Shown: positions 12,318 to 63,180 of the stretch, in pieces
Layout: every line of letters begins with the position of its first letter
How positions within the stretch are numbered: position 1 is the stretch's first letter
NCBI RefSeq assembly: GCF_963675165.1
Contig: NC_087381.1
Span: 5,085,378-5,149,377 of the forward strand
Origin: Halichondria panicea
Lineage: Eukaryota > Porifera > Demospongiae > Suberitida > Halichondriidae
Length of the DNA: 64,000 bases
Reading direction: 5' to 3'
The notes under the pieces: generated by a model
Told to the model about the DNA's origin: nothing
Databases searched by the model: none
What the model saw: the letters and a program-made list of their open reading frames with translations, nothing else
Translations under genes and position numbers: made by a program

Positions 12318-12363
12318 TAGCCTCGAATCCAGGCCGATTAAAATTGGCCTGGTCTCGAGGCTA
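12318..12363. mobile_element. Minimal 46-bp TAGCCTCGA element
   Basis: TAGCCTCGAATCCAGGCC, a short loop, then the inverted CCAGGCC and CGAGGCTA. GTGCAAAGG is duplicated exactly on both sides (12309-12317, 12364-12372), a 9-bp TSD. This is only the terminal hairpins of the family that elsewhere carries RecQ-like fragments. Confidence 0.75.
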
Positions 12364-18400: not shown

Positions 18401-21400
18401 TTGGGTCACACTGATGTTTGAGCAAGATACTTCATGATCAACTATATAACTAGAAGCATGCAGAGCATGTTTAGAGCGAGCGTGCGCGAAATATGTATCT
18501 GCATGCATGGGTTATCAATGCTATAGCCATTACAGCAAAAGAACTGGGTGCAAAGCCTAACAGGAAGATAAAGGTTACCACAACAACTCCTTCTGGACTC
18601 AAGTACAAGAAAGCGTTTGACTTTTTAGTGTGTAATTGCACACATGAATGTGGCCCACACAGTTGCATGTCTGCTTTATGGTGATAGCTCCAGCCCAGAA
18701 ACATCAGCATGCAGGATGATACATGTAGATTCCAGCTCATCTAACAAGGCAACCCTTCTTGATCTGCTCTAACCCCGAAGTTGCATCCAATGATGAGATA
18801 GGTCAGAGTGAAACGTATCTATATCAATTATGAATGAAAGTTTATCATGTTATCAATAATAATTATGGCCCAACATTAATTTTACACAGCATGGGGAAAG
18901 ATGTGTCCTAAAAGGAGGAGAAGGTTAGGACTGAAGAAAAATGAGCACAATACTGTTTCTTGCTGGACTCAGGTTACAAGGCTTAAAACAAGTATTACCA
19001 TGTACTGTGTGAACAATCCTTAATAAAAGCTGCTCTGACCTGTTATAATGTTGTAAAGGTGCCTGTGTGACTTTAGATACCTCTAACTGAGCTGCTCTGA
19101 CCTGCCGTAGTGTCTGGTCTTTGTGTTGCCAGTCCTGTTAAGCTAGCAGGTTTATTTAGTATCACAAGACACACTAGACAAGGCTTGAAGTGACCTATCC
19201 TTGATGAAACATAGCAAGTAAGCTGCTGTTACCTCCTGCAGGCGTGCCTGTGTGATCTCAGGCTCAGAATGTCCTCATCTGAGCTGCTCTGACCTGCTGT
19301 AGGCATGCATGTGTGTGACCTCAAGAGTCTCTGTATCTTCCTTCGTTGGTGAAATGAGCTAGCTACCCATTAGCCTCGATTCCAGGCCGCAGGGAAAGGC
19401 GGCCTGGTAAACACTGTTTACGCATGCGCCAGAGAATCTTGGTAATCGTAAATTGTAGTATATTTATCAGTATTCTTATTCCGCATTTAGTTGTAAAACA
19501 TTGATATCCGTTTCATTTATAATAATGTCATTGAGAAAAGAAATCTAGTCCAAGTTGTAATGCACCTATCAATGTCAGTCCCCACTACCCCCCTTGCGGG
19601 GCATAGTGGGGACATAGTGGGGTTTTGTTGGGGTTTGATTCAGCAAGTAACCCCGAGGTGCGGGATAGGGTGGGGAATTTGACTTCCTCAATATATATAT
19701 AACAGTAATATCCGGAAAAGTAAAGCACATGCACGCGTGTAGTCAAATCCCGGGGTTGTTAAGTGGGGGTATGGGAGGGGAAGTGGGGATTTGATTTCAA
19801 CCAGGCCCCCTGGCGTGGGGCAGTTGATATTGATGTAAATCAAATCCCCACTAAACCCCGACATAGCCCGCATGGGGGATAGTGGGGACTGAAATTGATA
19901 GGTGCATAATGGCTGCTACCTTCTCTTCTGCTCTCGCGTACGCGTTATCCTGTGTTGGAAAACCAGGTCTAGTCTTGAAAGACAAGCAGCTGGAGGCGTT
20001 GAAGTGTCTGTACGCTGGTGTTTATGTGGGTACCGTACCGACCGGCTATGGCAAGTCCATCTGCTTTCCAGACTCTCCCTTTCTTGATTGAAGTGAAGCT
20101 TGACAGGACCAGTGCACCTCTCTCTGAAAGAAGTGTTGTGATGGTGATTTCTCCTCTTGTTTCTCTGAGTGAAGCCATCTTCAAAGTGTTGGTGTGTCTG
20201 TTCGACGTTCAGTGCCATTCTCTCTGGAAGGAAGCATTGTTGTGACATTTGCCGAAAATTGGTCACAGAGTAAGTACGTGGTATCTGATCCGAGAAATGT
20301 GTTGCCTGAATGTGTTTACAATCCGAGGGACTTGTCGCCCGAGTGTGTATCCATATCCGATCCGAGGGACTTGTTGCTTGAGTGTGTATTAATGGATAGT
20401 GCTTTCAATGGTAAATCTATTGTGTAAATCAATAAGTAGTCCTCACATTATGTTACGTCGCAGCCACTGTACTTATCCACATTTATTTTTACCTACAGGT
20501 TTAACTAATTTCTTATGAGATTGACTTGTCGCCTGAGTGTGTATCCGATCCGAGCCTCAAGTTAATGGATAAATCTACAGAGCTGAGGTTTTACTTAGCT
20601 GTCTCTGTCTACAGTATATAGTATATACAGAGAGGTAGCTCTCCTTTTTCTTTTTTCTGTTCTTTATCGCAGTCGTTCAATAAGATAAAATACTGTTTTA
20701 AATGTTCAATGACATAAAATACGGTAAATAATAAATTAATTGTCCACCCACGCGCCAACAGTAAATACCAGGCCCACTATTGAAGGGGCTGGAGTTGAGG
20801 CTAGCTACCCATGTGCAGCATTTCACGTAGAAGTTGGTAAAGGGTCACAATTACAAAAAACAAATATCGTGCCGGTGTCATAAAATGTTGGGCCCCCCAT
20901 GTTTACACCCCCCAGGGCCTAGAATTTTAATATTTTGGGCCCCCCGGGCCTAGAACGTTAACAGTTTAGGCCCCCCAGGGGTCCATTCTGTTAAAATTCT
21001 AGGCCCCCCAACTGTGAGATTAGGCCCCCTCTTTTCTGCTATCCTTTTCTGCACAGATAGAACAAAGATGAACGAAGTCAAAAAAAGTTATTATGATAAG
21101 GTTAGCTCTATTAGTTGACAAAGCATCAAAGGGACATGCATGCAAAGACTCTGTACTAGCAAAAATGTTAGCTATCATGGAATTCAAAGTGATGGAAGAT
21201 TTACCTTCAAGTTACTCATGCTTATACCTATATAAGAGTTAAATGCTTTGATGCAACTCTGCAATGTTGGATCTGCCTGTAAGACAATCGATGTTGTGCA
21301 TTACAGCTATCGCTATAAAATTATTTGCAACTTCGTGCTAGCTTCGCCATTCCAACTTTCCCAGCAGGACAAAACATGGTATAGCGTTATCCCCCGAACG

Positions 21401-24400
21401 GCTGGCTGCCAAAGGAGGGTAAATGTTGTGAATTCACAATAATTATAAAGCACACAATTTTCAGTGCAAAGACAACAATTCATATCTTCTTCCATATGTT
21501 TTCCTACATGGAAGAAGATCAATGTAAATTGTTGTGGAGATGCTCCAGTATATAGCTCAGCTCTCAATATGGAATCATAATTATATAGAGAGAAGAGAGA
21601 AACTCTTTTATCTATGGTGGAATCACAGTACATGCATGTAATAAGTGCACAAGCAAGTGAGCCCTGTTAGACTGATCGAGCTAGTTTATCTTGTGTAAAG
21701 CTTATTGTTTGAAAATTCTAGTAGTCCAGGCTTGATAAGCTTTTTGGAGTAACCCAGCTGCTCAGAAGCAGCAACCTTGAAAATCCGGTCGGGACAGTTG
21801 GCCCCTATGTGCTTCATGCTGCATGAGGCCTGATTCATGGAATGGTGCATGCTGTGATGGCTGTGACCAGCCGGTCAACCACTGAGTTGCATCGGAAATG
21901 TGTGCATGTGAGGAGAGCTTCATTCAGCAACTGGCACTGAATAGACTGTATCATACTTAATATAGCTGGTTTTATGTTGTTGTACTTTGAGAATACACAT
22001 TCAATGCTCATAAATAATAATAATTACTGCTGTGTTAATGTTTCGCTGTTAATGGGGGGGGGCCTAAACTTTTAAGAGGGGGCCTAGAATGTTAAATCAT
22101 GGGGGGTCTATAAAATGTTATGACACCGGTCCATGACACACAGACAGGAAGGGACTTGCTTCACTCGCCCCAATTATATAGTTGGCCAGAAATGTGGAAA
22201 AGTATATTGTCTGCGGCATATCATTATAGATGAATAATTGCAAGCATGCATGCATGAAGATACTGGCAATGGTTCAAATACTATACAGGAGTCAATTGCC
22301 TCTGTAGCTATACCTGCTTCGACTCTGAAAACATTAATTGTATATGCGGTTACTCAAAACGTCCACATTTTAAGTATAGACAATAACTGATGAAAAAGGA
22401 AGGTCTAATCTTACCATCGAAATAATTATATACAAGCATACATGGGCAATAATTATATTCTCATTTGATGTAATTCATATTCATGACATGGATAGCAAAT
22501 ACTTGGCTAAGATCCAGAAGAGGGCTCAATCCAGTGCTCCACCCTCTACTATTAGCTTTAAGCTAGAAGCTCAGTGGTGATCCAAGGTAGCAAAAGAACC
22601 CCCCCCTTTGCCAGAATTTATTTTTAGCAATCTACAGTCATTTACAGTTATGTTTTACTTGCTTATATGTCCACTCTAGAACGAACAGAAGCTATAGCTA
22701 AAAGCTTTATACTTCTTTCTATACTGAATGCGTTGCAAACTCTGCAATTATTGGTGCAGAGATGGAGATTTCCCATGCACATTTATGTGGGCAGAGATTG
22801 AACCGTAAGTGGGCATAACCCCTTTCCACCATACGAAATAAAATATACTGTATTCTCATTGATGCAAATCATATTGATAACAGTTTTACCACAGAATGTA
22901 ATTGACCAATTCCAATGTGCCAATTAAAGAGATTACCCGGATATATAATTACACCGTACCCTTCTAAACAAGGCTATGCAATTGTCAGAACCCATAAACA
23001 GTTAATGCTAAAAAATGGGATTTACATTTTGTATCACAATGATGAATGATGACGAGATACTTGGCCACTTCCCAGTGTCCACCTTTGTAGGCCAGAGAGA
23101 GTGGGGTGTCACCAGCCTTGTTGACTGTACCTGTACATGTATACAGGCCATATAATTATACTGAGTTGAGTATATTTGGTATGTCGTAAGGTTCCATTTT
23201 TACATTCTATCATACCATGAACGTACTTCTAATATCACAATGATGCTCGTTCACAAGGTACTTGACTGTGTTCAAGTGGCCATTAGTACAGGTCAGAGAG
23301 AGTGGGGTGTCACCAGCCTTGTTGACTGTACCTGTACATGTATACAGGCCATATAATTATACTGAGTTGAGTATACTTTGTATGTTGTAAGGTTCCATTT
23401 TTACATTCTATAGCCCCGTTTACACGACACCTAATCCGGGTCGAATCCGGATTGAATCCGGGTCAGATTTTTCTGAGTAGTGGGCATAGTAAAATGACCA
23501 CTAATTTCATTTGCGCAAACATTGGACTGATAGGAAGCTACAGGCTTACTCTAGAAACACCCACGAACATGTACAACACCTCAGAATTAGCCCTTTGCGC
23601 TTACTCACAGCTAAACCGCTACTGACACAATCTGAACCACCTCCAAAGGTGGGTTGGCTAATCCGGATTAGAACCTGGATAAGGGCCGTTTACACGAACG
23701 CGATTAGGTTTAATCCGGATTCCAACCCGGATTAAAGGCCTCGTGTAAACGGGGCTTATCATACCATGAACGTACTTCTAATATCACAATGATGCTCGTT
23801 CACAAGGTACTTGACTGTGTTCAAGTGGCCATTAGTACAGGTCAGAGAGAGAGGGGTGTCACCAGCCTTGTTGACTGGCTCTGTGGAAGACCACCTTCAA
23901 TAACATAACAGCCACTGATAAACACTTACTATTTGGATCAACACGCTTGTTCATGAGAGCCTTGACCATCTCCAGGTCACCACGGGAACACTCCAGGGAG
24001 AGAGGAGTGTCTCCAGCCTCATTCACTGCAACTATACAAGCAAATTGTAGAAAATGTGGAAAAGTAGGTGTTGGTTGATTTATAAAATTTGATGAGAAAG
24101 CATGGCAATGCTTCGAATGAGGTTCAGCATACAAGGCACTATGCACACAGCAATAACGAGTGCTAATAATAACGAGTGCTGCAAGCAGCTAGCGCTGTGC
24201 TATAAGTATATTATAGTTGATTGACAATGAATGAGATATAGACATTACACCAACGCAATAGATTGCATAAGCCAGAGCTTCACGGATCTCAGTCGTGGAG
24301 AAAGTATTACGGAACATATTCTTAGTAAGCGAACTAATTTACAGTATAATTTACTAAGGTTTTACGTTCGTAGTACGATTACCCATATTCTGGGTAATTT

Positions 24401-27400
24401 GAAGCGCATGCGCACTATCACCCCTGCAATAGGTACCAGGCCGTATTTTAATTGGCCTTGAATCGAGGCTAGTACTGTATTTACTCACGGATTGTAAAAG
24501 GAGATGGATAGGGAACACCAATGTTCACCCACGTAAAATCCGTGACACAATCAGTGTTTCGGATAAGTCCGTATAGTGTAGGAAAAAACAAGTATCTTTG
24601 TGTGAGGCTATCTCTTGGATAGAAGTAGCCAAACATTTGAGAGAGAGTGTGGTAGTTGCTAGCATGTAGGTGCATGCCGCTATTATTATTTTTTGTTTGT
24701 TGAAGAATTGCTTATGGTGTTAACAGTTCAGTTTATGACTGTCCATCTTGGCTGTGACCAAGTCAATAGAAGGCGGGGCTTTGGAAGTGTGTCCGATGCT
24801 TGAACGAGCACCTCTAATGCATTGAATAGCTGATCGGAGAAGAGAGAAGGTAAGGCGGCAGCGAAGCCAGGCCAGGGTGGTTGAGTATGATTGCTCCCAT
24901 TTGTCGGCAAGACACGCGGATAACCTTTTTGGTTAAAAGTAGTGGCTTCCGTGGCCAAGCCTCCAGTGGCAGACAATACAAGTGGAGTGAATGACGAGTG
25001 TTCTACTTCTCTCACTCTCTGTTCATATGCCCTCTTTTTGATGGCTTCATGTTTGCGATAGCAAGCGGCTAGGCTCGTCTGTCGGTTGGAGCCTGCATGG
25101 GGATTGAAAATTCTGACGTCAAAGAAACCGTTAGCAGCAATGTCCAGTCTTGCCCTATCCTGTGAGTTATAGAGGTGGCAAATGAGAGAGTTTCACCAGA
25201 TAGGGGTTGCAGATCTGGTTCTATTCGAACATCAGAGTATATTTCTGTTAGGAGATTTGCAGTCAGATCTCTAATCTCGTTGTGGTGAATGGATGGAAAA
25301 ACCGCCTTTAGAGAAAGATAGAGAGTGCTCTATCGAGAATCTTGCTCCGCAGCCACATGTAGCGGGACAATTTTGTGGCTGCCAATTGTATCTGTATCTG
25401 AGTGCAAGGGCATCTTGAAAGGACCTCTTGTGTAAGTTAAACCCGAACTCCTCTATGGGTAGCGCAGTGAGCCAAGAGGAGGCGCCTTTAATTTCTCCTG
25501 AGCAAGCTCCATTGCTCGCTTGAGAGTGTGAGGAAGTTCTTCTTTCAAGTTTTGTGCGGCTTCTTTAGCTTGTTTACGTCGTTGTTTGCGTACTTCCTTC
25601 TTGGCGTTCAGCTGTAAGTCCACACTGTTGCTGGAAACCTGAGCGTGTTGTTGGAGAACGGATTGTTGAAGGGGCTCAGTTACCCTCTGTGATGCGAGGA
25701 ATTCTGTATCCGAAGCTTGGATAGGGTTGGCCAAGACAATACCACCTAGGCGAGCAGGTAGAGCTAGGAGATTCCTTTCACAGTCATTCGGTGGCGGTCT
25801 TCCTGTGAGAGAGGGGATGAGCTTGGTTCTGATTGTTCCTTCAATGGGTAAAAGGCTGGAAGAAATGCCCTGTAAGGTGCGGGATAGGTATACCCATTTG
25901 CTCGCTATTCCATACATGGGCGAATATTTAAAATGGGCGTTTATTAACAAAGATAACTTTTACCATGGGCGTTTAAACGAGATGGGCGTTAAATACGGTA
26001 TTTTTGGCCACGTGGTATACATTATGTTATTAATTTATTACACAATAGTTAGGTCTGCACGTGCTTTTCTGAGCCCGTGTATGATGGGTGGGAAGATAGT
26101 CATTATTTATGTAGTCATTATTAGACTTGATGACTCTATACAGGGCCATATCATCGGCAAACATGTTGAGGTTGCTGTCCTGTGAAATAACTTCTGTTAC
26201 TGGGTTGATATAAGAGATGAATAGTATAGGGGGCCTAAGACCGAGCCTTGAGGAACTCCAGAAAGGACTCGTAGACTAGCTGAAAAACATCCGTCTATTC
26301 CAACAAATTGCTCTCTGCCCAGTAGATAACTTTTCATCCACTTAACAATGTACTCATTGACGTGCATATACTGAAGGTGCTTCAAAAGAGCAACATGTGG
26401 GACGGAGTCAAAAGCTTTTTTGACATCAAAAAATACAATACAGACCTCATATCTCCCGTCGACAGCCCTGCTCCAGTCATCAATCACTTGAATGAGAGCT
26501 GACACAGTTGAACGTGACGACATAAAGCCCCATTGCCTTGGGGAAATTGGTGAATGTAATTTCATGTGCTCCTCCAGAAGTGCTTTCACATGTTTTTCCA
26601 GGGTCATGCTTACAACTGGTAGTATTGATATTGGCCGGTAGTTGTTGACAAGTGATGGATCACCACTCTTGGGTACAGGAACAACTCGTGCCTTTTTCCA
26701 TGCTGAAGGGTAATTACCTGTGCTGATTGATAAATTAAACAACATTGCAAGTGGAGAGGCACTATTTTCTGCAGTACTTTTTAGCATATTAGGAGATATG
26801 CCATCACAGCCCATAGATTTGCCAGTTTCTAGGTTAACAAGATATTCATATAGACCTACTTCCTGTTCTGTACACAGCAGATCTTTTGGGCAATCAGAAG
26901 GGTCTAGGTCAACAAATTGGTCAGCAAAGTCATTTATTTCTAGTGGAGGACACTTGAGATTGAAACAATAATGGAAAAAAATGTTAAGTGCAGTGGCTTT
27001 TTCAATTGGTTTGTCAAATGTCCTGCCATTCTCTTTGAGTGTAGGGATCGAACAAGTGTTACCATTCAGGGTTTTTATTGTTTTCCAAAACAGTTTATCA
27101 TCTTTAGTATTCAATCTGTCGAAGAAGTTCTTCTTGCTTTTCCGAATCATGGATACCACAAGATTTCTTTGGTTTTTAAACCTCTTAGCATCCATCACCA
27201 GCTTGATTCGATAATTTAGATCTCTTAATTAAAAAGTATATTTCTCTTGGTTATCGCTCTGATAATTTCCTTGTTGATCCAAGGAATTTTTCCTTTAACC
27301 TTGATACTTGAATGGGGTATACTAACTTCCATGATTTGCAGGAAGGTCGAGTTCCAAGCTGACACACAGGAATCAATGTCATTCGAGTAGAACTCCATTT

Positions 27401-30400
27401 CCCAATTAGTCATTTCTATTAATTCAGCGGCCCGATCAAAATCTGCTAATGAATATCTCCAAACTTGTCTTCTGATAACTCTTTCTTTGAGGGGACAGTA
27501 TTTTTTCAGGGTGAGAAATAAACCCAAGTGATCTGAATTGGCTAGTTTAGGTATGGATGTACAATTTTCTACATTGTTCGGCCTTGAAACCAGCACCAAA
27601 TCAATAGTTGATGAATGGCCTGTGCTCGAAAAACGAGTGGGACACTTGGCAATTTGTGATAACGAAAAATTACACAACAATTCTAACAAGTGTGCATACA
27701 TGTAATGCGAAGGATGGAAATTAACATTGAAGTCACCAATAATAATTAAATCGGATAGACAAGACTGATTTATAGTGAGTAGTGCATCTGAGAAAGTATC
27801 AAAAATAGAATTTCTTGAGGACGGTGGACGATAAAAGACACCAAGACATAACTTGAGGTGATCTCTGATTAAAGTGACCAGCACAAATTCTAGACCAAGC
27901 GGCCCTAAAAGTAAAATGTTAAAATGAATGCTTTTGTGAATAAACATGGCAACACCGCCACCATTCCTGTTTCTATCTAATCTAAATACATTGTAGTTAG
28001 GAATGTATAACTCACTATCTATAATATCACTACACAACCATGTTTCTACTAGACAAACAACATCTGGGCAGTAGGTAGCACAAATAGCCCTTAAGTCCTG
28101 TTTGTACCCTGAAAGTTTGCACCCTCCACATTATGTTGATTGCCTAAGTCTGACCTAAAAAAGGTGGTTGCGAGTTGTTTTGATCCTCAGTAGATTGGTC
28201 TACATTGCTACTTTGGTCCTGTGAATCCTGATCAGTAACATCGTGAACTTGATCCTCAGGAAGGTCCAGCGATGGGTCTACATTGTCATCGTGAGCCTGT
28301 GTTCCAAGTGCCTTATCTAGTGGATCGCTAAAGCGATATAGTGGCTCTAACTTCCACCTAGCTTGCTGATCAATAAGCAACCAGTTATCCTCCAGTATTT
28401 TTAGCTTACTTTCATCGCCACGAACAACAAGCATTGGTTCATAATAATTATACCATACCCTCGCGAATAATATATGCCCACTATTTTCTGTTTAGGTACA
28501 AGAGGGTACAGGGGCGGATCCAGGATTCTTGATAGGGGGGAGCTAAAAATATTTTACTAAAAAAAAAAAAAAAAGTCATCTGTTTTTCAAGCACATGTTT
28601 CCTGCATGACTCATCAATGCTTTCATAATAAACTGGGTGTGGCCATGATAATGTAACCGTAGCTACGTGCATGCAGTGAGTTGATAGCTATAACATAATT
28701 ATAGCTCTAGATTCTATTTTTCAGATCAAGGCCAGGGGGGTGCTCAAGCCCCCAAAGCGCCCCACTGGATCCGCCACTGATGGGACTATTCGTATTTTCC
28801 CAAACGGTGCATAAGACATATATATATACGCCCATCAAAATGATACTTAATGTCACACCAAAGGGCAGAGGAGAGCCACCTATATAATTGTAATACTCGC
28901 TTTCTTAGTCAGTCAGACTATAGATTGAAGAGTTAGAGGGGGATAGGAAACGGTTGGTATCTCGAGTAACATCCGCGCTACGCTGCGGTTTAATCGAGGC
29001 CATCACAACAATATCTATTTCTACACTCAGTGCATAACTACAAGTAACTGTGCTTAGTCCGTGCAACTCACTTATATTTCAAGGTCTATACCTATTGTAG
29101 TAGTCATAACCAGCACGCTTACACGTTATATGTTCCAATAGCTCTAAAACAGCCTTGGGAACATATAACTTTATAGGAAAGTCTCTTTTTTACTGGGTGT
29201 GGTCAGTCATTAGCAAGCACTACACGTGGCTCATGGACTAGGCGTGTTATAAATTGCTGAAAGAGATGATGTCTCGAGGAAACACAGCTTTGGGAGTTAC
29301 CCGGCAAAAATGTGCTTAATAGCCTCGTAACGCGGATAATTTTCGAGGCTCCACTGCAGATTCAATCTAAAATCATCACGTGCACCACTCCGTTTCCTAT
29401 CCCTCTAACTCTTCAATCTATATAGTCAGACAAAGAGCGGTGAAACGAAACACGGGTAAACCCACTGCCAATCCTATGTAAAACCTACTGGTTTTACAAA
29501 TTGATAACCGTAAACAAACTTAAAAGATGGGATTTACTTGTTGTATCACAATGATGAGTGATGGCGAGATACTTGACCACTTCCCAGTGTCCACCTTGGT
29601 AGGCCAGAGAGAGTGAAGTGTCACCAGCCTTGTTGACTGGTTCTGTAAAAGACCACCATCAACAACGTAACAGACTGATAAAACTTACTATTTGGATCAA
29701 CACGCATGTTGATGAGAGCCTTGACCATCTCTAGGTCACCACGGGAACATTCAAGGGAAAGAGGAGTGTCTCCAGCCTCATTCACTGCAACTGTGGATAC
29801 AAGCAAATTATAAACAACAAAAAGTTTAACAGTTTGCAGTATACACACATTTTGGGTCACACTGATGTTCTTGAGCAAGATACTTGACCACTTCCCAGTG
29901 TCCACCTTTGTAGGCCAGAGAGAATGGGGTGTCACCAGCCTTGTTGACTGTACCTGTACATATACACCACATGCATACATTGGTTTCTTTTGAAACTTCT
30001 AAAGAATAATTTAGGGAGTTTTTATAGTGGCGTAATAGGAGATCATTATAATTCATTACATATGCCACAACATTGAAGATAACCACATGTATAATTATAT
30101 AATCAATTTATTATGCCTGTATGTAGAAAAGCTATAATTATATACAAATGAGTGGGTCTATATACGTGTACGTACAACGATAACTTACTTCTAGGAACAC
30201 AATGATGCTTGTTCACAAGGTACTTGACTGTGTCCAAGTGGCCATTGGCACAGGCCAGAGAGAGTGGGGTGTCACCAGCCTTGTTGACTGGCTCTGTATA
30301 TATAATTATATACTGAAGTGATGCAGCAATTAATGTGTCATACAATGCTTACTTCTAGGATCACAATGATGCTCGTTCACAAGGTACTTGACTGTGTCCA

Positions 30401-33400
30401 AGTGGCCATTGGCACAGGCCAGAGAGAGTGGGGTGTCACCAGCCTTGTTGACTGGCTCTGTATATATAATTATATACTGAAGTGATGCAGCAATTGATGT
30501 GTCATACAATGCTTACTACTAGGATCACAATGATGCTCATTCACAAGGTACTTGACTGTGTCCAAGTGGCCATTGGCACAGGCCAGAGAGAGTGGGGTGT
30601 CATCAGCCTTGTTGACTGGTTCTGCATGTGAAGGACCACCATCAACAACGTAACAGTACTGCTGATGAACACTTACTATTTGTATCAACATGCTTGTTGA
30701 TGAGAGCCTTGACCATCTCCAGGTCACCACGGGAGCATTCAAGAGAAAGAGGAGTGTCTCCAGCCTCATTCACTGCAACTGTGGATACAAGCAAATCATA
30801 AACACTAAAAGGTTTAACAGTTTGCAGTATGCACACATTTTGGGTCACACTGATGTTCTTGAGCAAGATACTTGACCACTTCCCAGTGTCCACCTTTGTA
30901 GGCCAGAGAGAGTGGGGTGTCACCAGCTTTGTTGACTGTACCTGTACATACACCACATGCATACATTGGTTCCTTTTGAAACTTCTAAAGAATAATTTAA
31001 TAATTATAGGGAGTTTTTATAGTGGCGTAATAGGAGATCATTATAATTCCACAACATTGAAGATAACAACATGTATATGTAATTTATATACAACAATTAA
31101 ATTTGATTATGCCTGTATATAGAAAAGCTATACAAATGAGTGGGTCTATATACGTGTATACGTACAACGATAACTTACTTCTAGGAACACAATGATGCTC
31201 GTTCACAAGGTACTTGACTGTGTCCAAGTGGCCATTGGCACAGGCCAGAGAGAGTGGGGTGTCACCAGCCTTGTTGACTGGCTCTGTATATATAATTATA
31301 TACTGAAGTGATGCAGCAATTGATGTGTCATACAATGCTTACTTCTAGGATCACAATGATGCTCGTTCACAAGGTACTTGACTGTGTCCAAGTGGCCATT
31401 GGCACAGGCCAGAGAGAGTGGGGTGTCATCAGCCTTGTTGACTGGTTCTGCATGTGAAGGACCACCATCAACAACGTAACAGTACTGCTGATGAATACTT
31501 ACTATTTGTATCAACATGCTTGTTGATGAGAGCCTTGACCATCTCCAGGTCACCACGGGAGCATTCAAGAGAAAGAGGAGTGTCTCCAGCCTCATTCACT
31601 GCAACTGTGGATACAAGCAAATCATAAACACTAAAAGGTTTAACAGTTTGCAGTATACACACATTTTGGGTCACACTGATGTTCTTGAGCAAGATACTTG
31701 ACCACTTCCCAGTGTCCACCTTTGTAGGCCAGAGAGAGTGGGGTGTCACCAGCTTTGTTGACTGTACCTGTACATACACCACATGCATACATTGGTTCCT
31801 TTTGAAACTTCTAAAGAATAATTTAATAATTATAGGGAGTTTTTATAGTGGCGTAATAGGAGATCATTATAATTGCCACAACATTGAAGATAACAACATG
31901 TATATGTAATTTATATACAACAATTAAATTTTATTATGTCTGTATATAGAAAAGCTATACAAATGAGTGGGTCTATATACGTGTATACGTACAACGATAA
32001 CTTACTTCTAGGAACACAATGATGCTCGTTCACAAGGTACTTGACTGTGTCCAAGTGGCCATTGGCACAGGCCAGAGAGAGTGGAGTGTCACCAGCCTTG
32101 TTGACTGGCTCTGTATAATTATACATAATTATTTTAACATAGTATTTAAAAAGAGTATAATTATAGTTATGTTTAAATAAGGTTAGTCATGCATGCATGT
32201 ACACAATACAAACAATAATAGTTTTGTACATGGCTTATAATTTATACCGCATAATAAGTAAGCTAATCATTTTTATCCGGTTCTATTTTTATCATGCAAG
32301 ATAGCCACATATCGTATTACTAGATTTTGCGGGTGAAAACCTTTGCGAATGAGCTAAATCAGCAGAAAATTTTACTTTTTGCGATCTAACTATTGCGATT
32401 TGGCAAGGATTGTGTGCACTTACTAGTAATAATTTAGGTTTTGCGATTTTATTGTTGCGAATTGATCAACCCTCGCAAAATTCACATATGTTTGTTACTC
32501 GCAAAACATTCTAGTAATATGGTAGCCTCGACCCCAGGCCGATCCGTCTCCAATTGAACGCTAGGTCGCCTACTAGGCCTGGTATTGATTGTATTTGGGC
32601 GTGATTTTTTAATACATAAAACAAATTGACTCTGTGTGGTACAACAAAAAATGAATCCTCCAACAGTGGTCTTCAACAACAGGCTCTGGGGCAGTATACA
32701 GCAGGAAATACTTCCCAGAAGACACTTCTTTGGCAGTGGCAACCAAATCTTTGTCGATTCCTTTATTGCTACTGAGGATGGCAGCAGAAACACCGCTATT
32801 GTTTAGACTCCTGACCTGGTCAATCATGAGTCTCATGATGAGAGATACAAGGGGAGAGACAATTAACAAGAACAACACTTTTGTCAACAGGAGGAGCCTT
32901 GGTCCTACCTAGCTTGTAGTCCATTAAAAAGGGTAGCAACTGATATAGCAGAGAGACTTGCCATACCCCGTTGGGAACCAGATACCGTAAACACGTCCAT
33001 TCCCTCAAACAGGAGCTTGAGAGCCTGGGCCTGTTCTGCCATGAGAGTGAGGCCATCTTGCTTCAAACAAGACAACGCGTTGCATGCCATAGCTAGCTAG
33101 CTATAAATTGAGAACATAACACGGAGCTACATTACTGTAACTTTTACGGGAGTAAAATGCCTCTACGTACACCTTTAGTATTACAGAAAAAAAGCAGGAA
33201 ACAAATGTGAAGAATCTCTGCTTTTGTTTCTGGTTCCTGTCACGCCCAGATACAATCAATACCAGGCCGTATTTTTCAACTTCGTTCTATTAAAGAAAAA
33301 TCGGCCTGGGACCGAGGCTAGTAATATGGTAGAAGTTATGTGTTCAATTATGGCTTCATTTATGCTTTTATGTGGTGAACCAAGTATGCCTGGGACTTCT

Positions 33401-34036
33401 ACATGTACATGGAAAATGCTAACTGGTTGGAGCTTATACCAGGTCTACAGCATACAGATATGAGATGTAAAAGCGCGTTTTAACAAGGTATATGAAACTT
33501 TGATTTTCAGTAAAGTATGACAAAGTTATGACAATGAAGGTCAAACTCAACACAGCAAGAACATCAAAGAAGAACACTATACAATTAGTGGGTGTAATAC
33601 ACAAAACTTACTTCTAGGGTCACAATGATGCTCGTTCGCAAGGTACTTGACTGTGTCCAAGTGGCCATTGGCAGAGGCCAGAGAGAGTGGGGTGTCACCA
33701 GCCTTGTTGACTGGCTCTGTGAACACCAATTAAGTAACCCCCGATCATCAATCTAATAATTATGACTAATAAGCAAATAATATATATAATTGTTGTGGGC
33801 TCAGACCGGCACAAAGGTATAAAGTTGAATAGGATTGAAAGCAAAAAACTTTTTCTTGAAGCATTATTTTCACCTTTTGGATCGAGGCCCACAGTTTTCA
33901 CAAAATGCTTGACACAGTCCAGCCAGCCACAGAATGCACTCACTGATAGAGCACTCTTACCTTCCCCTGCATGCAGTTGGTATTGAGACAATATAATGAT
34001 TATGCCTCGGTGCGCATGCGCAAGTGAGGTATATGG

Positions 34037-34093
<57 letters not shown>

Positions 34094-34261
34094 TGTGTAG
34101 ACTGCTACAGCTGCCAGGCATAACTCGAGAACAAAGCATTATTTTGCAAATCCACGAATTAAAATCCAAGTAAACATGACTAGAAGCCTATAGAAACTCT
34201 TACTTGCACTTGATTCATCCTTGAGCAGCTGTAGCAGTCTACGTACACACACACACATGCA

Positions 34262-34307
<46 letters not shown>

Positions 34308-37300
34308 ACCGTATACCTCGCTTGCGAATGGGCACCGAGGCATAATAATTATACTGACCTTGCTAAGTGCACACACTCGAGCTCTCTGCCAACTTAAACT
34401 CACCAATGCTCACTAGAGCTTCCACAATATCCTTCCACTGGATGCCAATATTCTTGATTTTGGCTTCCTTGAGAGTTTCTGCTGTGGGATGTTGGCTCTT
34501 CTTTATGGTTTCCAATTCATCATTGACCAATCCCAAGCAAACACCAAGTAGAAGCCATTGGTCACATTCACATTTCAGCTGACTCAGCTGTTCCAGTGTT
34601 GGGTACGAGGACAGGGGATCTACATACAATGTGTAGGAGGTATTAATGACATTTAGAAGCCAAAGAGACTCTGTAGTATATTGAGTGTATTGTGCATGTA
34701 GTTATATACATCTCAGGGGCGTTTCTAGAGATTGAAGCAGGAGGGTGCTCAAGAGCAGAGGAGGGTGGACAGGGTCAAAAGGTCACTAATGAATCATCAC
34801 GTGAGCTTATGTTTTGTGCAGTAAATTTGCAAGCTTGACTGCACATCGCGCCCTGATTCTTGTGATAAAGTAGCCCCTTCACGTTACTGCTGCTGTAAAT
34901 TAGTTACTTTTAGCTACTGCGCCCATCCAGAGAAATCGTGCATTGCCTAAAAGGGTGACCTCTCACAAAGGTCGTAGTTCTGTCATGTCAAACTGACCTC
35001 TGACCCTTATAAAGTAGGAGCTACCGTGCTGTAGAGTGAATGTATAGCTCAGCTATATCATCATCTAAGTATACTCTTGTTTCCAGAATGAAAAGGTGGC
35101 CTGCATGCTGGCTAGAAAAGAGCTTGTTAAAGTAGGTTCAAGGTTCAAGTATTTTAATAAAAGACTACGTCATCATTAATTTTTTGGCTTTGTGTCCAAC
35201 CTCCTCTGGCTCAAGAGTACAGAAAAAATGGGGCGCGCATAGCTCGCATTTATTGCGGCGCAATCTTTCATACATCCAGCTCCTCCCCCATGCAGCCTTG
35301 CAGCAAAAAAGTACAGCACACTGCCCAAGAAAAGAGCGGCTCCTACTATTCTCTTCTAGAGCTTCTCTCTTCCATTCTAGTTCTGTTACTATGATACTAG
35401 ACAAAGCATCTAGCTACAGTAATTTTTATGTTATTACATGTGTATCTTCTTGTAAATGACAATACAATGTATAATGTTGTAGTTTGTAGCCCAGAGCAAT
35501 CTATAGTACCGGTACTATAGCTCATAGTTTCCTGCTAAATACACTCAAATGGGATCTAATACATGCATAGCGTGATAATAAGACATAATTATGAGTCAGT
35601 CATCTTGTAGGATCTCCATGCACTATTCTTCTGGGGTACATCCTAGCAAACTGGTCAATCACTGCAATGGGGATGTCCAGTCATTCTAGTGTTAGTCATT
35701 GTTTCTCAGTATCTCTCAGTGGAGCAAGAGGTGAGAGTGCAGAGGATCTTGATCAGCTACCGTATAGCGCGAAATTTTCGAGGGGCTCAATTTTCGCAGA
35801 TTTCGTGGGTTAGAATTCTACACGAAAATTAAGTCTACGAAAATTTTTCTTTAATTAGAATTACCTGCTATCATGCAAATATTCCGCGAACATTGTGCAA
35901 CGAAATGGCTTTTAGAGGCCAATCAACGAAATATAAGTGCCTCGAAAATTTCGCGTTATACGGTATTATGCATTACAAACATTAGAATGGCAATACTGAT
36001 TGTGCATGCTCAATTGGGCGTGGTCATGACTTGTACATGTAATCGTTGTCAATGAGATAGAGCTGCACGTATCTCTGGAGCTGCACAGTTAGCTAGCTAG
36101 CTACTGAGTGATAGGATTAGTTTCATGCATGGTTGTCTGGGAGGACAGGGGGGTGCTCAAGCCCCCCATTGTACACGCCACTGCATCTGTGGTATTGCAT
36201 GCACTGTATTAGCCTCGATTCAAGGCCGATTAAAATACGGCCTGGTACCTATTGCAGGGGTGATAGTGCGCATGCGCTACAAATTACCCAGAATATGGGT
36301 AATCGTACCACGAACGTAAAACCTTAGTAAATTATACCGGAAATTAGTTCGTTTACTAAATATGTTCCGTAATACTTTATCTCTATGACTGAGTTCTGTG
36401 AAGCTGTGGCTTATGCCGTCTATTGCGTTGGTCTAGAAGGCTTGAACACTAGTTTTAAGACAAAAGATGCTCTCATCTACGTCTAGGACCAGGGGTGTAC
36501 ACAGGGTGGTGCTTAGGGTGCTCCAGCACCCCCATCCAGACTCTGGTGCTCCAGCACCCTATACAGACTCAGAGAAGCTCAAGTAGATAGTTCAACCATC
36601 ACTGGCTGGCTAGAAGGAAGCTACACTTACTGCAGCTATCTACAGCTTAATAGTGATAGTTACAATAACTTTATACCAGTTAGATCTAGCTAGCTAGCTA
36701 AGCTGGCCTAAAAAACTTACTTTTCTTCGATCGTTACTGGGATATCCATGGGACTAGTAAAGAGTGGGGAGGGGCTCAATAATAAGGCTAGGCAGCAGGA
36801 AGTGGTTTGCTGTATCAAACACATAGAACACTTGATTGCTTCACAACATGCAGCACAACAAGGTTCTTGGATCCAGGTACATGAGGTACATGAATGTATA
36901 GTATAATTATATAATTAAGCCTACATGTATGTACAATAAATTAATAATAATCAATGTTTGCAATGTAAACTACAAAGTCTCTTTTCCTCAACATCAAGGT
37001 ACTGGTGGTCATACTTTGTACGCTGCCTGTCACCTCCTGGTAAGCTGATCAATCTTTTAGTGGCCTGAAAAGAAAAGAATCAAGACTGTCGTCAGATCAA
37101 GCAAAGGAACAAACGTTTATCATCACTTACACTTCTACATTTACACAGAGTAGACTAGATATGATTGCATTGACATTTGACATACCTTAAGAAGAGTTGG
37201 CTAGAGTTTGCCATCCCCAGGCGAATTGAGCTTCTGGTCATAAACATTCTTGACTTGCTGGATGGCACTGTACTGATTATATGTCAGTACTGTGCACCAT

Positions 37301-40300
37301 CTAGAAAACAGTGGGCGTTGCCGACAAAAGGGGCGTTATCCCCGGAAGTGGGCGTGGTTTAAATTTTGCGGCGCGCTTCGCGCGCAATGAGCACCTCCAT
37401 TGACTGAATCCTAGGATCGCCCTGAGGACTGTCCTATAGCCGGGTTGTCTTTGTGAGTAGCAGTTTGAGGCACCATACACTTCCCATAGCCTGTACAGAT
37501 CCATGGTAAGACATCCTGACCATACAACCATCATAGAGGTAGATGAGAGCCTCTCCTGGCTTCAGACTAGTGTGAAAGCCTTCTGGAACAACGCAATAGA
37601 GAGCTAAGCTGATGTTTACAAAGATAGAAAATAGATGAGGGAGAAAAAGGGGATTCCCCAGATTTTGGTGAATAAACTAACGCATGCGCACTATCACCCC
37701 TGCAATAGGTACCAGGCCGTATTTTAATCGGCCTTGAATCGAGGCTAGCACTGTATATACAAGGAGTAGTGATAGGGATATGTATAAGTAAACTGGAGGG
37801 CAATAAAATGAACACGTTTTCTATGAATGTAGTGGTGGATCGAGGTTAGGCAATAATAATTATATGTGTGACAAGCACATTTGCATTTCAAATACCTTCA
37901 GATAACTAACATAACACTAACTGCATGAGATTCAACAGACGTGTCACTTGTATTGAAATTATTATTATGGACCGCACGACATCACAGAGAAACCACTGAT
38001 CTAGTTGTATATATACTGACCATGCATGGCAGTGATCAATGCAACTCACTAGATATCTACTGACTGCTGTGTACAACAGCTGATGGTCAACTCACCTCTA
38101 GGCCCAGGCTGGAACCCCTCCACATAGTCAGCCAAGGCATCGTACCCATACTCTCTGGCCAAATCAGCAGCAGTCCGTTCAATAATGTCCTTGATATCTG
38201 CATGATTGGTTGTGAACAGGAGCTGAGCATGAACTTACAGTACAATCATAATTATGTGACAGGCTTTGGAAAAATAAGACTTTTGGAGAGAATTTAGTAT
38301 TGAGCTATAGCTAAATTTATGGCTATACAATATAAAATCTTAAATAAAATGTTATTGGCATATACGTATCTACATTATCTATAAAATCTGATGCTTTAAA
38401 TCCAACCCTTTCCACCAAAGTGCTTTGTTTAAACTTTCACCATCACCTTATTTCCTAATTGAACAATCTTTGAGGTGCGTTTTCTCAATACCGTATACTT
38501 CTTCTAAAAGAGGCGACCTTCTAATAAGGTGCCACCTGGAGATTTCTCCCATGGGCCATAAGGCACCATATAAATTCATAGGCTGTTTCTTGTTTTGCAT
38601 ACACTATAGTCTCAAAAAGGTAATTATTAAAAAGTGGCGCTTATTTAGAAGAAGTACGGTACTTCTATGCGCTGTTTTTTCTTTTTGTGTATCATGTTCC
38701 TCATACCATTCTCTTGAAGTGTGATAAGTTTGGTTCTGGGATTCCAATGGGATCATGAGATATGTTTTGGGATGTAGTGTGATTTGGGAAATATAATTAT
38801 GTGTGCTAACTTTCCTGAACTTATGTTATCACAAGGAAGAATTCGAACTTTTGGCCGAGTGACATTTTCAGCCGAGAAACTGTAACGACTGATAGCTAAA
38901 GCAAGTTTACAGCAATCATATACGAACAGCAAAATAGTACTGACACCACGCCAGCTATTTGATTGAGCGGCGACAAGCATTTGAATACTGCACTACAGAG
39001 GACTATGAGAGAGAGCAACATCATCTTGAACAATAATTGACCTAGTGAAAGGGCTTGCCACACCCTGTCCGTGTGCATGGGGTAACTTGAAGTCCCTGGG
39101 AAGTCCAGTCAATAGTACAGGTGTGTGTTGAAAGTTGACTGTCAGTTTTTAAAATACACATGTGTTTTTTTGTAGAAAGGTCATGTGGTATGAGCTCTTT
39201 TTTGCTGCTGACGACGCTGTAAGGTGCAGAAGAGAAAGTGGTCCAGCTCCCACGTATTTGGAGGCCATTATTTGGTGAATCAGAAGTAAGCTTATGGATA
39301 CAAAACCAAATAATTATAGACCAAATTTATGTGTTTACTGCATCTCTGGTATATTTTATGTAGGGTTGTTTATGGGTTTACGTGTGCTGGAATTTTACCC
39401 TCCCAATACACCCACTTTAGTCAGTTCTGTGGTTTAGGGACAGAGTGTAAGTAAATTCATAGTGTTTCCTCGGTGTACGGAAAGCTAGGTTACCGTGACA
39501 TAGTACAAAGGGCAGCAAACGTGAGCATGATGTCGGCTGTTTTTGATGTGAAAGCCCTTCCTGAGTATACCACCAACAAAGGAGAGGTGTGTTTGTGTAC
39601 CGTATTACTAGAATGTTTTGCGAGCATCAAACATTTGCGAACTTTGCGATGGTTGATCAATTTGCAACAATAAAATCCATAAAACCTAAATTATTACTAG
39701 TAAATACACACGATCCTTTCCAGAACACAATAGTTAGATCGCAAAGGGTCAAATTTTCTGCTGATTTGGCTCATTCGCAAAGGTTTTCACCCACAAAATA
39801 TTTCTAGTAATACGCGTTACGGTTGTATAAATAATTTTATTAAACTAAGTGGGTAATCACTGATGCCCGGCACGACTCGACAGCCAACGCAGCATACCAC
39901 ACAACTGTGCCTTGCCTGTCTGAAAGGTGGGAAGTGTCCCTGTCAGTTTTGTTGTATATTTTCAGCAACAAGAAGATACTCGGCATATCAACTCTCTCTC
40001 GGGCCGAACACTCCACTGCACAGACCAGAGAACTTGCGTGTACCAAGCTTGTTATCAGGTTTATCCTCATAATAAATGAATGCACATAATTATAATAATT
40101 ATTGCCAAATCTAGGTATTGAAGTCATCGAGGTAGCTCATGATATGCAGGCGCAGGTCGCAAAGTACGTGTCAGACAAGTTGGGACTCATCAATTCCTAC
40201 GACACTTGGCATGGTAAGAAAATGTGTGGTATATATTGTATCATTTTCACACACATTTTAGGAACGAACAATGTGTCAAAGGAAATAAAGAAAGCAACGC

Positions 40301-56438: not shown

Positions 56439-57313
56439 CGGAAGCCCATAGGGGCCATTCAGTTCCACTCTAAGATTCCACTCTAGAATGCACTTCCACT
56501 CTGCAATTCCACTCTAGAATGCACTTCCATTCTGAAATTCCATTCTGAAATTCCATTGTGTTATTGTCTCCATCCAGTGTGAAAAATGGCTATAGTGAAG
56601 TTGAGAAACTTGTTAATATTTTGAGAGTGCATGGGTATTCTTACAGGCCTGTGTTTTTTATCTTGTTAATCCCTAGCCTCGATCCCAGGCCGAGTTTTAG
56701 CTTTTATAACGGTACCGTTAGGTGAACAACGTTGTTTGCCTAACCGTTATAAAAGTGAAAACTCGGCTTGGGATAGTTAATCCCCAACAGCTACTGCTTG
56801 TAATAATTATTCTGAAACATATTTAGGACACAATCAAACAACCACTGTTATACGGTGACAGCATTGGGGACACGAATGCTAATGATCTGTCTCCAACACA
56901 TGCACAAATTGATATAAATGTTACAAATCATCAATAAACGCTAAATTTCTAACTGCAGTTTTAATGTTCATAGCTACCAGTTCTGTTACCAAGTGCCTGA
57001 ACATGTACAGACCAGATGATGTCAATTTGACCTTTGCAGTCTTGACATATACCTCCAGGCTCCACTCTGGTTGAACATCAGAGAGGGCAGAGCTGGTGGG
57101 CGGGACTTTATCTTGCATTGAGGACACTATACTCCCATGCACACTCTTTTAATACACTATAATTATGTGTGGGGGGGGTCAGTTTTGTAATCTCAAAGAT
57201 GTGTAGCTATAATTATAACGGCTGAATTTCAGTAGCCCTTGCTACAGTCAGAGTGGAAGTGCATTCTAGAGTGGGATCTTAGAGTGGAACTGAATGGCCC
57301 CTATGGGCTTCCG
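56439..57313. mobile_element. 875-bp TIR element with CGGAAGCCCATAGGGGCC ends
   Basis: The ends CGGAAGCCCATAGGGGCCAT and complement run about 75 bp, flanked by TA (56437-56438, 57314-57315). Interior: repeated TTCCA-TCT units, a nested TAGCCTCGA element, and a minus-strand frame (57142-56921) without a known domain. Confidence 0.75.
56674..56775. mobile_element. 102-bp TAGCCTCGA element
   Basis: TAGCCTCGATCCCAGGCCGA, then a hairpin around GCTTTTATAACGGTACCGTT, with a right end missing about 7 bp of the TIR. GTTAATCCC is duplicated exactly (56665-56673, 56776-56784). Nested in the 56439-57313 element. Confidence 0.75.
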
Positions 57314-62475: not shown

Positions 62476-63180
62476 GGCCCTGATAAATTATGCTCAGAAT
62501 AATTTTAGCATAATAGATCTTAGCCTCGATTCCAGCCGCGAAGATCGAGGCTAAATAGATCTAGGTGTCTAAAGATATCAATGTTCATTTTTGGGAAATC
62601 AATTTTTGCATAACGAATGTTCTCATAGCAAAAAGTGGCTGAAGGGGAGTACTGATTAGGCCAAGCCAACTTAATAACATGTTTCACGACTTTCATTAGC
62701 AATTTATAGACCAGCTAGGCCTGTAAAAAAAAAGTATGAATCTCATTAAAAATGAAGGGAGAGTGGGTGTTTAGGCTGTTAGAGAAATTGTTAGGCTTCC
62801 CAAACCACACTGGTAAGTTGTGGTCACAAAAAAACCTTATAAGGGTGTTTTTTTACAAAAAGAGACCTGCTTGCATCCGTGAAGCATGTAATTAAGTTGG
62901 CTTGGCTTTATAGTGAATATTATGGATCAGTTCAAGTCGGCAAGATAACACTGAGAACCATGCATGATCATATTAATTATGTCATGTGTCAGTCATGCAT
63001 GTGCTGTGTTTATGCCTACGTCTTAATTTCGTCAATAATTATTATGTCACATTTTTTGGAAATAATTACATTTTTATGAGAATAATCAGGGAATAATCGG
63101 ATTTTTTATGAGAATAATAGGTACATTTTTCAAAAATAATATAAAATAATGGGGAAAAAAAAGCATAATTTATCAGGGCC
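62476..63180. mobile_element. 705-bp TIR element with GGCCCTGATAAATTATGC ends
   Basis: GGCCCTGATAAATTATGCT and complement, flanked by TA (62474-62475, 63181-63182). The subterminal AAGCCAACTTAATAACATG (near 62661) is inverted near 62883-62907. A TAGCCTCGA mini-element is nested at 62521. Non-coding. Confidence 0.7.
62521..62553. mobile_element. Minimal 33-bp TAGCCTCGA element
   Basis: TAGCCTCGATTCCAG, short loop, ATCGAGGCTA. AATAGATCT is duplicated exactly (62512-62520, 62554-62562). Smallest member of the family in the window. Confidence 0.75.

Follow-up and report, generated by a model that had tools for sequence, protein, structure and literature searches.

The window considered here is a 64,000-nucleotide stretch of the genome of the sponge Halichondria panicea (C5:5085378-5149377, contig NC_087381.1 of a 131-Mb assembly in 39 contigs). 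It contains three elements (elements 1, 2 and 3, Table 1), each carrying the beginning of a RecQ-like helicase gene. With a probability of roughly 0.85, these elements are non-autonomous and derive by deletion from a family of cut-and-paste DNA transposons that fits AcademH. Full-length relatives have the same type of ends and target site duplications of 9 bp, and encode a RecQ-family helicase, with both core domains present, and a DUF6589 protein; the two genes start at opposite ends, each about 0.2 kb from the terminus, and converge. The helicase start recurs in the derivatives because it adjoins one terminus of the element.

All three elements have TAGCCTCGA-type ends and exact 9-bp target site duplications (TSDs), which were re-found as the earlier note had given them. 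With up to 3 mismatches allowed, the window contains 13 matches to the 18-bp end where 0.01 would be expected; genome-wide, there are 9,410 (4,695 + 4,715) at up to 2 mismatches, the reversed control pattern giving 0 matches. The terminal inverted repeats (TIRs) of element 2 are 83 bp long at 78% identity. A RecQ-like translation beginning near an end is present in 3/3 elements, as had been claimed for each of them. In the window copies, the middle of the element is missing, and what is preserved is one terminus together with the 5' end of the helicase gene next to it; element 3 is composed of two such termini facing each other and, outside its nested insertion, has the helicase-start sequence at both ends in inverted orientation. 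The half element of Table 1, also recognized previously, has the same kind of end at 24471, and 228 bp of it align at 92% identity with the left portion of element 3.

Two details of the earlier description hold in part. The fragments were said to end by or soon after motif Ia. The fragment of element 2 extends, with frameshifts, beyond this motif to about 20 residues short of the DEAH motif, and the left copy in element 3 stops before motif I. The start codon was placed about 150-230 bp inside the element, which is correct for uninterrupted copies (~0.2 kb); in element 1, which contains a nested repeat, this distance is 538 bp.

The parent is represented by L002, a 5,349-bp element with identical TIRs of 69 bp and the TSD CTATGATAT on both sides. 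Its helicase frame, starting near the left end, comprises 396 amino acids; the best PDB chains are WRN and BLM (E-value 1e-36), and RecQ chains are matched as well. The opposite strand carries, from near the right end, DUF6589 exons (E-values 2.7e-31 and 9.2e-12). This DUF6589 gene is multi-exon, with a zinc-finger-like cysteine pattern seen by eye in the first exon; gene starts and introns were read from the sequence. Among the five transposase-side frames of L002, two exceed the Pfam cut-off for DUF6589 and none matches a family of Mutator-like elements (MULEs). Five further L002 copies are 99.85-99.93% identical over the parts fetched, and from this near-identity recent movement may be inferred. 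L003 (5,821 bp, TSD TGCCGGCCT) represents a second full-length branch. Both full-length elements encode a RecQ-family helicase, and no MULE transposase was matched in the frames scanned; this is the content that the earlier note had proposed to inspect in long copies.

Pairing of the two genes was also examined genome-wide. The RecQ model TIGR00614 (28 of 511 candidates scored) gave 35 matches, merged into 27 loci when on the same strand within 6 kb; the DUF6589 model PF20231 (102 of 106 candidates scored) gave 85 matches in 57 merged loci. PF20231 had no match in 14 prokaryotic control genomes. A DUF6589 match lies within 8 kb of 16 of the 27 RecQ loci, in 16/16 cases on the opposite strand, and at 15 of these paired loci it is located 284-698 bp downstream of the helicase match. 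At the sixteenth (on C3), an overlap arises from merging several DUF6589 matches, the nearest of which lies 541 bp downstream. The unpaired RecQ loci comprise three presumed host genes (C13:1507530, C16:643344 and C7:226457), at which the family end was not found at the thresholds used within the 2.3-4.8 kb examined, and eight others, including the truncated L006 and the decayed L004.

Copies of the window elements were sought in the genome, with 40 candidates scored out of 761 for element 1, 921 for element 2 and 815 for element 3. Elements 1 and 2 each belong to a repeat family, with 40 long matches apiece, window included. In the family of element 2, the alignments at the 40 scored places (window included) span bases 1-798 in 38 cases, 1-797 in one case and 1-761 in another. 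The 39 other long matches of element 1 begin at an element base of at least 528, and the left pieces end at base 192 at most; the repeat nested between them has inverted ends CACCTATCAAT and, by eye, apparent TAA flanks. The 39 other places scored for element 3 match only within bases ~270-1228, apart from one 36-bp end match; with 40/815 candidates scored, further copies of element 3 itself are possible.

The TSDs were compared at 20 of the 39 other places of element 1 and 20 of the 39 of element 2, picked by coverage and rank, a sample favouring complete copies. At least 8 of the 9 TSD positions agree in 16/20 copies of either family. Exact TSDs are found in 30 of the 40 sampled copies at 9 bp and in none at 10 bp (shuffled pairs: mean 0.8, maximum 4). 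Among these 30, there are 29 distinct sequences, one being shared by two copies.

The origin of the helicase pieces was addressed by a tree of 19 N-terminal pieces of ~33-100 amino acids, trimmed by hand. The three presumed host loci are split from the 16 rows of transposons and the window family (support 99/96). Element 2 is placed with L004 (83/82), and elements 1 and 3 fall within a larger group of L003, L004, L008 and L074 (94/91); this fine placement is unsure, as two window rows fill less than half of the columns, one host row is long-branched and another is short. At the DNA level, identity between element 2 and L004 is 79% across 422 bp, and that between element 3 and L003 is 72% across 302 bp. 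From the tree and the DNA comparison, the strong differences between the fragments are therefore read as several autonomous branches, and not several captures, from which the window elements would descend.

The earlier note had considered two explanations: a parent that regularly carries a RecQ-like helicase gene, and repeated capture of the same kind of gene. The full-length elements with helicase and DUF6589 genes, together with the tree, support the parent, and the proposed comparison with host RecQ genes places the remnants with transposon helicases. Repeated capture of the 5' part of host RecQ genes in the manner of Pack-MULEs could account for fragments that differ strongly from each other; however, the fragments join the helicases of full-length elements in the tree and stand apart from the presumed host loci, and the helicase sits inside elements bounded by TIRs and TSDs. 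Capture was rejected on the 99/96 split and is considered extremely improbable. MULEs and Pack-MULEs have TSDs of ~9 bp and contain gene fragments, and the Mutator-like affiliation suggested by the earlier note is favoured by TSD length alone. In contrast, the helicase is here a gene of the element itself, the interior of the derivatives being related to transposon helicases, and DUF6589 was found instead of a MULE domain in the scanned frames of L002, L003 and L008 (Pfam; no genome-wide MULE search was made). A MULE transposase as the source of the 9-bp TSD was rejected on these frames and is scarcely credible.

The assignment to AcademH is based on the following comparison. AcademH transposons are described as helicase-encoding with TSDs of 9 or 10 bp in a passage of PMC10045372, and AcademH is treated as helicase-bearing in a part of PMC10799480. 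By its helicase and TSD length, the present family fits this type and would be a further example of a published kind; the view of the earlier note, to which neither arrangement was known as described, does not hold. The superfamily II helicase of AcademH corresponds here to the RecQ-family enzyme within TIR- and TSD-bounded L002 and L003, and the TSD length to the 9 bp of the sampled copies. Terminal inverted repeats are a general feature of AcademH and were observed in L002 and element 2. A paper on AcademH by Kojima (2020, Mob DNA 11:15) reportedly deals, judging from its title, with animals and fungi. This likeness covers the helicase and the TSD as given in descriptions of the DNA transposon; high copy number and derivatives bearing the helicase start are observations of this genome. 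Like miniature inverted-repeat transposable elements and other internal deletion derivatives, the window elements are short and of high copy number, and have ends and TSD length in common with an autonomous parent; the retained helicase start is the sole unusual point.

Alternatively, the family could constitute a helicase-bearing superfamily of its own, or be related to some other such superfamily, KolobokH for example, instead of being a branch of Academ. The likeness to Academ being known from descriptions speaks for this, as does the character of DUF6589, for which no function is named in Pfam and no mention was found in the literature searched. KolobokH, too, is described as encoding a RecQ helicase, in fungi only, and the helicase of Kolobok-1_CCri as lying on the complementary strand, in a passage of PMC9587614; it belongs to another superfamily. 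The combination of a helicase with 9-10-bp TSDs, on the other hand, matches the AcademH description in the cited passage of PMC10045372. Furthermore, the TSDs of the present family are varied 9-bp sequences, whereas the target of Kolobok is specifically TTAA. A separate superfamily or Kolobok relationship is thus regarded as unlikely. Searches for RecQ helicase transposons in sponges gave nothing relevant beyond PMC9587614 among the matches listed, and searches for Academ in sponges nothing on topic by title among the matches listed.

The DUF6589 protein is the candidate transposase of the family. In an alignment of 30 DUF6589 exon rows, counted by eye, GD followed by Q or another residue occurs in 15/15 covering rows (GDQ in 11) and DWH in 15/16 rows; a third motif, approximately (M)EH(L/I)N, is located further on, and no column is invariant. 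A structure model was obtained for L016, a relative with a single open frame (mean predicted local distance difference test, pLDDT, 65; ten-residue blocks of residues 181-560 between 62 and 91). In VIA its best four matches are Hermes hAT transposase entries, with Z of 5.6, 5.3, 5.0 and 4.9 over 219-236 residues at a root-mean-square deviation of 8-10, and the next row covers 65 residues at Z 4.3; rows less than 1 apart in Z are tied, and Z below 8 may mean little. Foldseek gave nothing significant for the same model (best E-value 0.4). These motifs and the model suggest that the DUF6589 protein could be a DDE-type transposase with a fold like that of hAT, its catalytic residues being putative.

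Several observations weigh against the assignment of the window elements to this family as derivatives of an AcademH-type parent. The full-length copies L001 and L012 lack matching TSDs, and no close identity to a window element was seen in any full-length parent fetched. Exact TSDs are missing from 10 of the 40 sampled derivatives, and at 11 of the 27 RecQ loci DUF6589 is not matched in the vicinity. The Hermes-like match is weak (Z 4.9-5.6, tied down to Z 4) and concerns L016, a relative outside the family. Finally, the likeness to AcademH is one of helicase, TIRs and TSD length, and the DUF6589 protein is no more than a putative Academ-type transposase.

The copies L001 (4207-9555) and L012 (512-5860) are near-identical and lie on C10, about 22 kb apart on opposite strands. 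The sequences flanking L001 on the right (TGGTTCTAT) and L012 on its inner side (ATAGAACCA) are reverse complements, and the remaining two flanks mismatch each other, which suggests a possible inversion by recombination between both copies.

The helicase-start remnants could also be retained for a function, for instance as a truncated protein repressing the parent; the KP derivative represses the P element. A short open frame from the start codon to past motif I persists in the consensuses of elements 1 and 2, and a first count with 21 rows each gave ratios of non-synonymous to synonymous changes of 0.51 (element 1) and 0.37 (element 2). For the 39 copies of element 2, the ratio for transitions is 0.60, lower than in both wrong frames (1.25 and 1.18), which leans to constraint; the other ratios do not, all counts being small and given without a significance test. 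The transversion ratio of element 2 is 1.42 (wrong frames 0.26 and 1.94), and the 38 copies of element 1 gave 1.00 for transitions (0.52 and 0.82) and 0.51 for transversions (0.43 and 1.15). In addition, both consensuses are frame-broken shortly after motif I, and gaps or inserts occur in the aligned stretch in 14/38 copies of element 1 and 11/39 of element 2, some of them perhaps due to alignments stopping short. These comparisons gave no clear sign of selection, and a functional role of the remnants appears highly improbable.

Very short units consisting of ends only were found as well. A scan of 285 kb (the window and part of the loci), given without a chance control, yielded ten TSD-bounded pairs, three of which are end-only units of 46, 33 and 39 bp; a 78-bp pair in L016, also among the ten, is probably unrelated. 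The 46-bp unit has 13 genomic copies at up to 3 mismatches, the window copy included (the others are L131-L142). In 11/13 copies, the TSD agrees at 8 or all 9 positions; there are seven distinct target sequences, and two of these, in repeated DNA, are common to three copies each. The same small asymmetry between the ends is present in 12/13 copies, which the mismatch limit favours. The only other match of the 33-bp unit (L143) has the same flanks, and the pair therefore looks like one insertion in duplicated DNA. The 39-bp unit lies in L007 (9712-9750) with the exact TSD GTAGCTAAG.

The 46-bp units may represent leftover solo ends, or else a mobile unit of very small size. Mobility of the units themselves, as two touching terminal repeats inserting with 9-bp TSDs, is possible and rather doubtful; if true, few cut-and-paste elements would be smaller than the 46-bp unit. 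The likelier course is an insertion followed by collapse between palindromic subterminal repeats (by eye, 11 + 24 + 11 = 46 bp).

Other DUF6589-encoding sequences of this genome differ from the helicase-bearing family. L016 (1195-6390), L017, L118 and L119 belong to a separate DUF6589 protein family, with frames of up to 1,732 amino acids and no helicase seen. AcademX, the sister lineage of AcademH within Academ, is described in a passage of PMC10045372 as having TSDs of 3 or 4 bp and, in place of the helicase, a nuclease; L016 and L017 are comparable in that no helicase was seen, while a nuclease and a TSD of this type would be putative in them. The C-terminal part of the L016 type is long, with XPG/PIN-like acidic motifs by eye, and some members have a weak CXC-type cysteine-rich match. 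An XPG-like nuclease, which would have linked DUF6589 to Academ, was suspected from the acidic motifs and was confirmed in none of the searches: Pfam found no nuclease, nor did phmmer or profile searches of PDB sequences; Foldseek with a poor model of this part (pLDDT 56.6) gave nothing significant; in VIA-align, the top row was XRN2 (Z 4.6), with unrelated rows tied to it; and hhalign against a host XPG exon gave a probability of 0.1%. The L016 locus is absent from the 13 XPG_I matches of the genome, and no literature linking Academ transposase with XPG was found. A 24-bp inverted pair near the L016 gene has no TSD, and three copies share flanks. Separately, six frames of 588-601 amino acids with XPG_I just above the cut-off, and a seventh, weaker one, are spread over ~114 kb at G000:C13:3752339-3866203.

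Table 1. Features of the transposon family in the window (positions counted from the first nucleotide of the window).
Feature	Position	Strand	Remarks
46-bp end-only element	12318..12363		exact TSD GTGCAAAGG
Element 1, non-autonomous derivative	19371..20803	+	TSD GCTACCCAT at 19362-19370 / 20804-20812; helicase side left
Nested insertion in element 1, other repeat with own inverted ends	19560..19906		absent from 39 other long matches
5' RecQ-like helicase part, element 1	19909..20079	+	57 codons, from start to just past motif I; frame lost shortly afterwards
Half element, right end and helicase start	24232..24471	-	other end missing
Element 2, copy of 798-bp non-autonomous family	32523..33320	-	TSD GTAATATGG; helicase side right
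Helicase 5' fragment, element 2	32657..33092	-	frame-broken; reaches shortly before DEAH; start codon by reading
Element 3, derivative	36210..37747		TSD GCACTGTAT; helicase-side ends at both sides, inverted
Helicase start, left copy in element 3	36385..36489	+	stops before motif I
Nested insertion in element 3, another repeat	36490..37422		39 other places match within ~270-1228 of element
Helicase start, right inverted copy in element 3	37465..37613	-	RecQ-like translation
Further family end	56674..56691	+	no partner with matching TSD within window
33-bp end-only element	62521..62553		exact TSD AATAGATCT

The derivatives could have arisen as follows. The DUF6589 protein, as a DDE-type transposase, would excise the element and insert it with a 9-bp staggered cut, and the helicase may help to unwind the ends or to repair the gap. 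Incomplete gap repair would then give rise to deletion derivatives, which could be mobilized in trans.

The recurrence of helicase pieces in the window is explained by the helicase belonging to the transposon and starting next to its end. A Pfam family of unknown function, DUF6589, is thereby linked to a transposon that bears a helicase and that has, within a single genome, full-length copies nearly identical to one another as well as thousands of ends. This system could provide a useful handle for testing the role of RecQ helicases in DNA transposition. In genomes of this kind, RecQ-like remnants should not be annotated as host repair genes.

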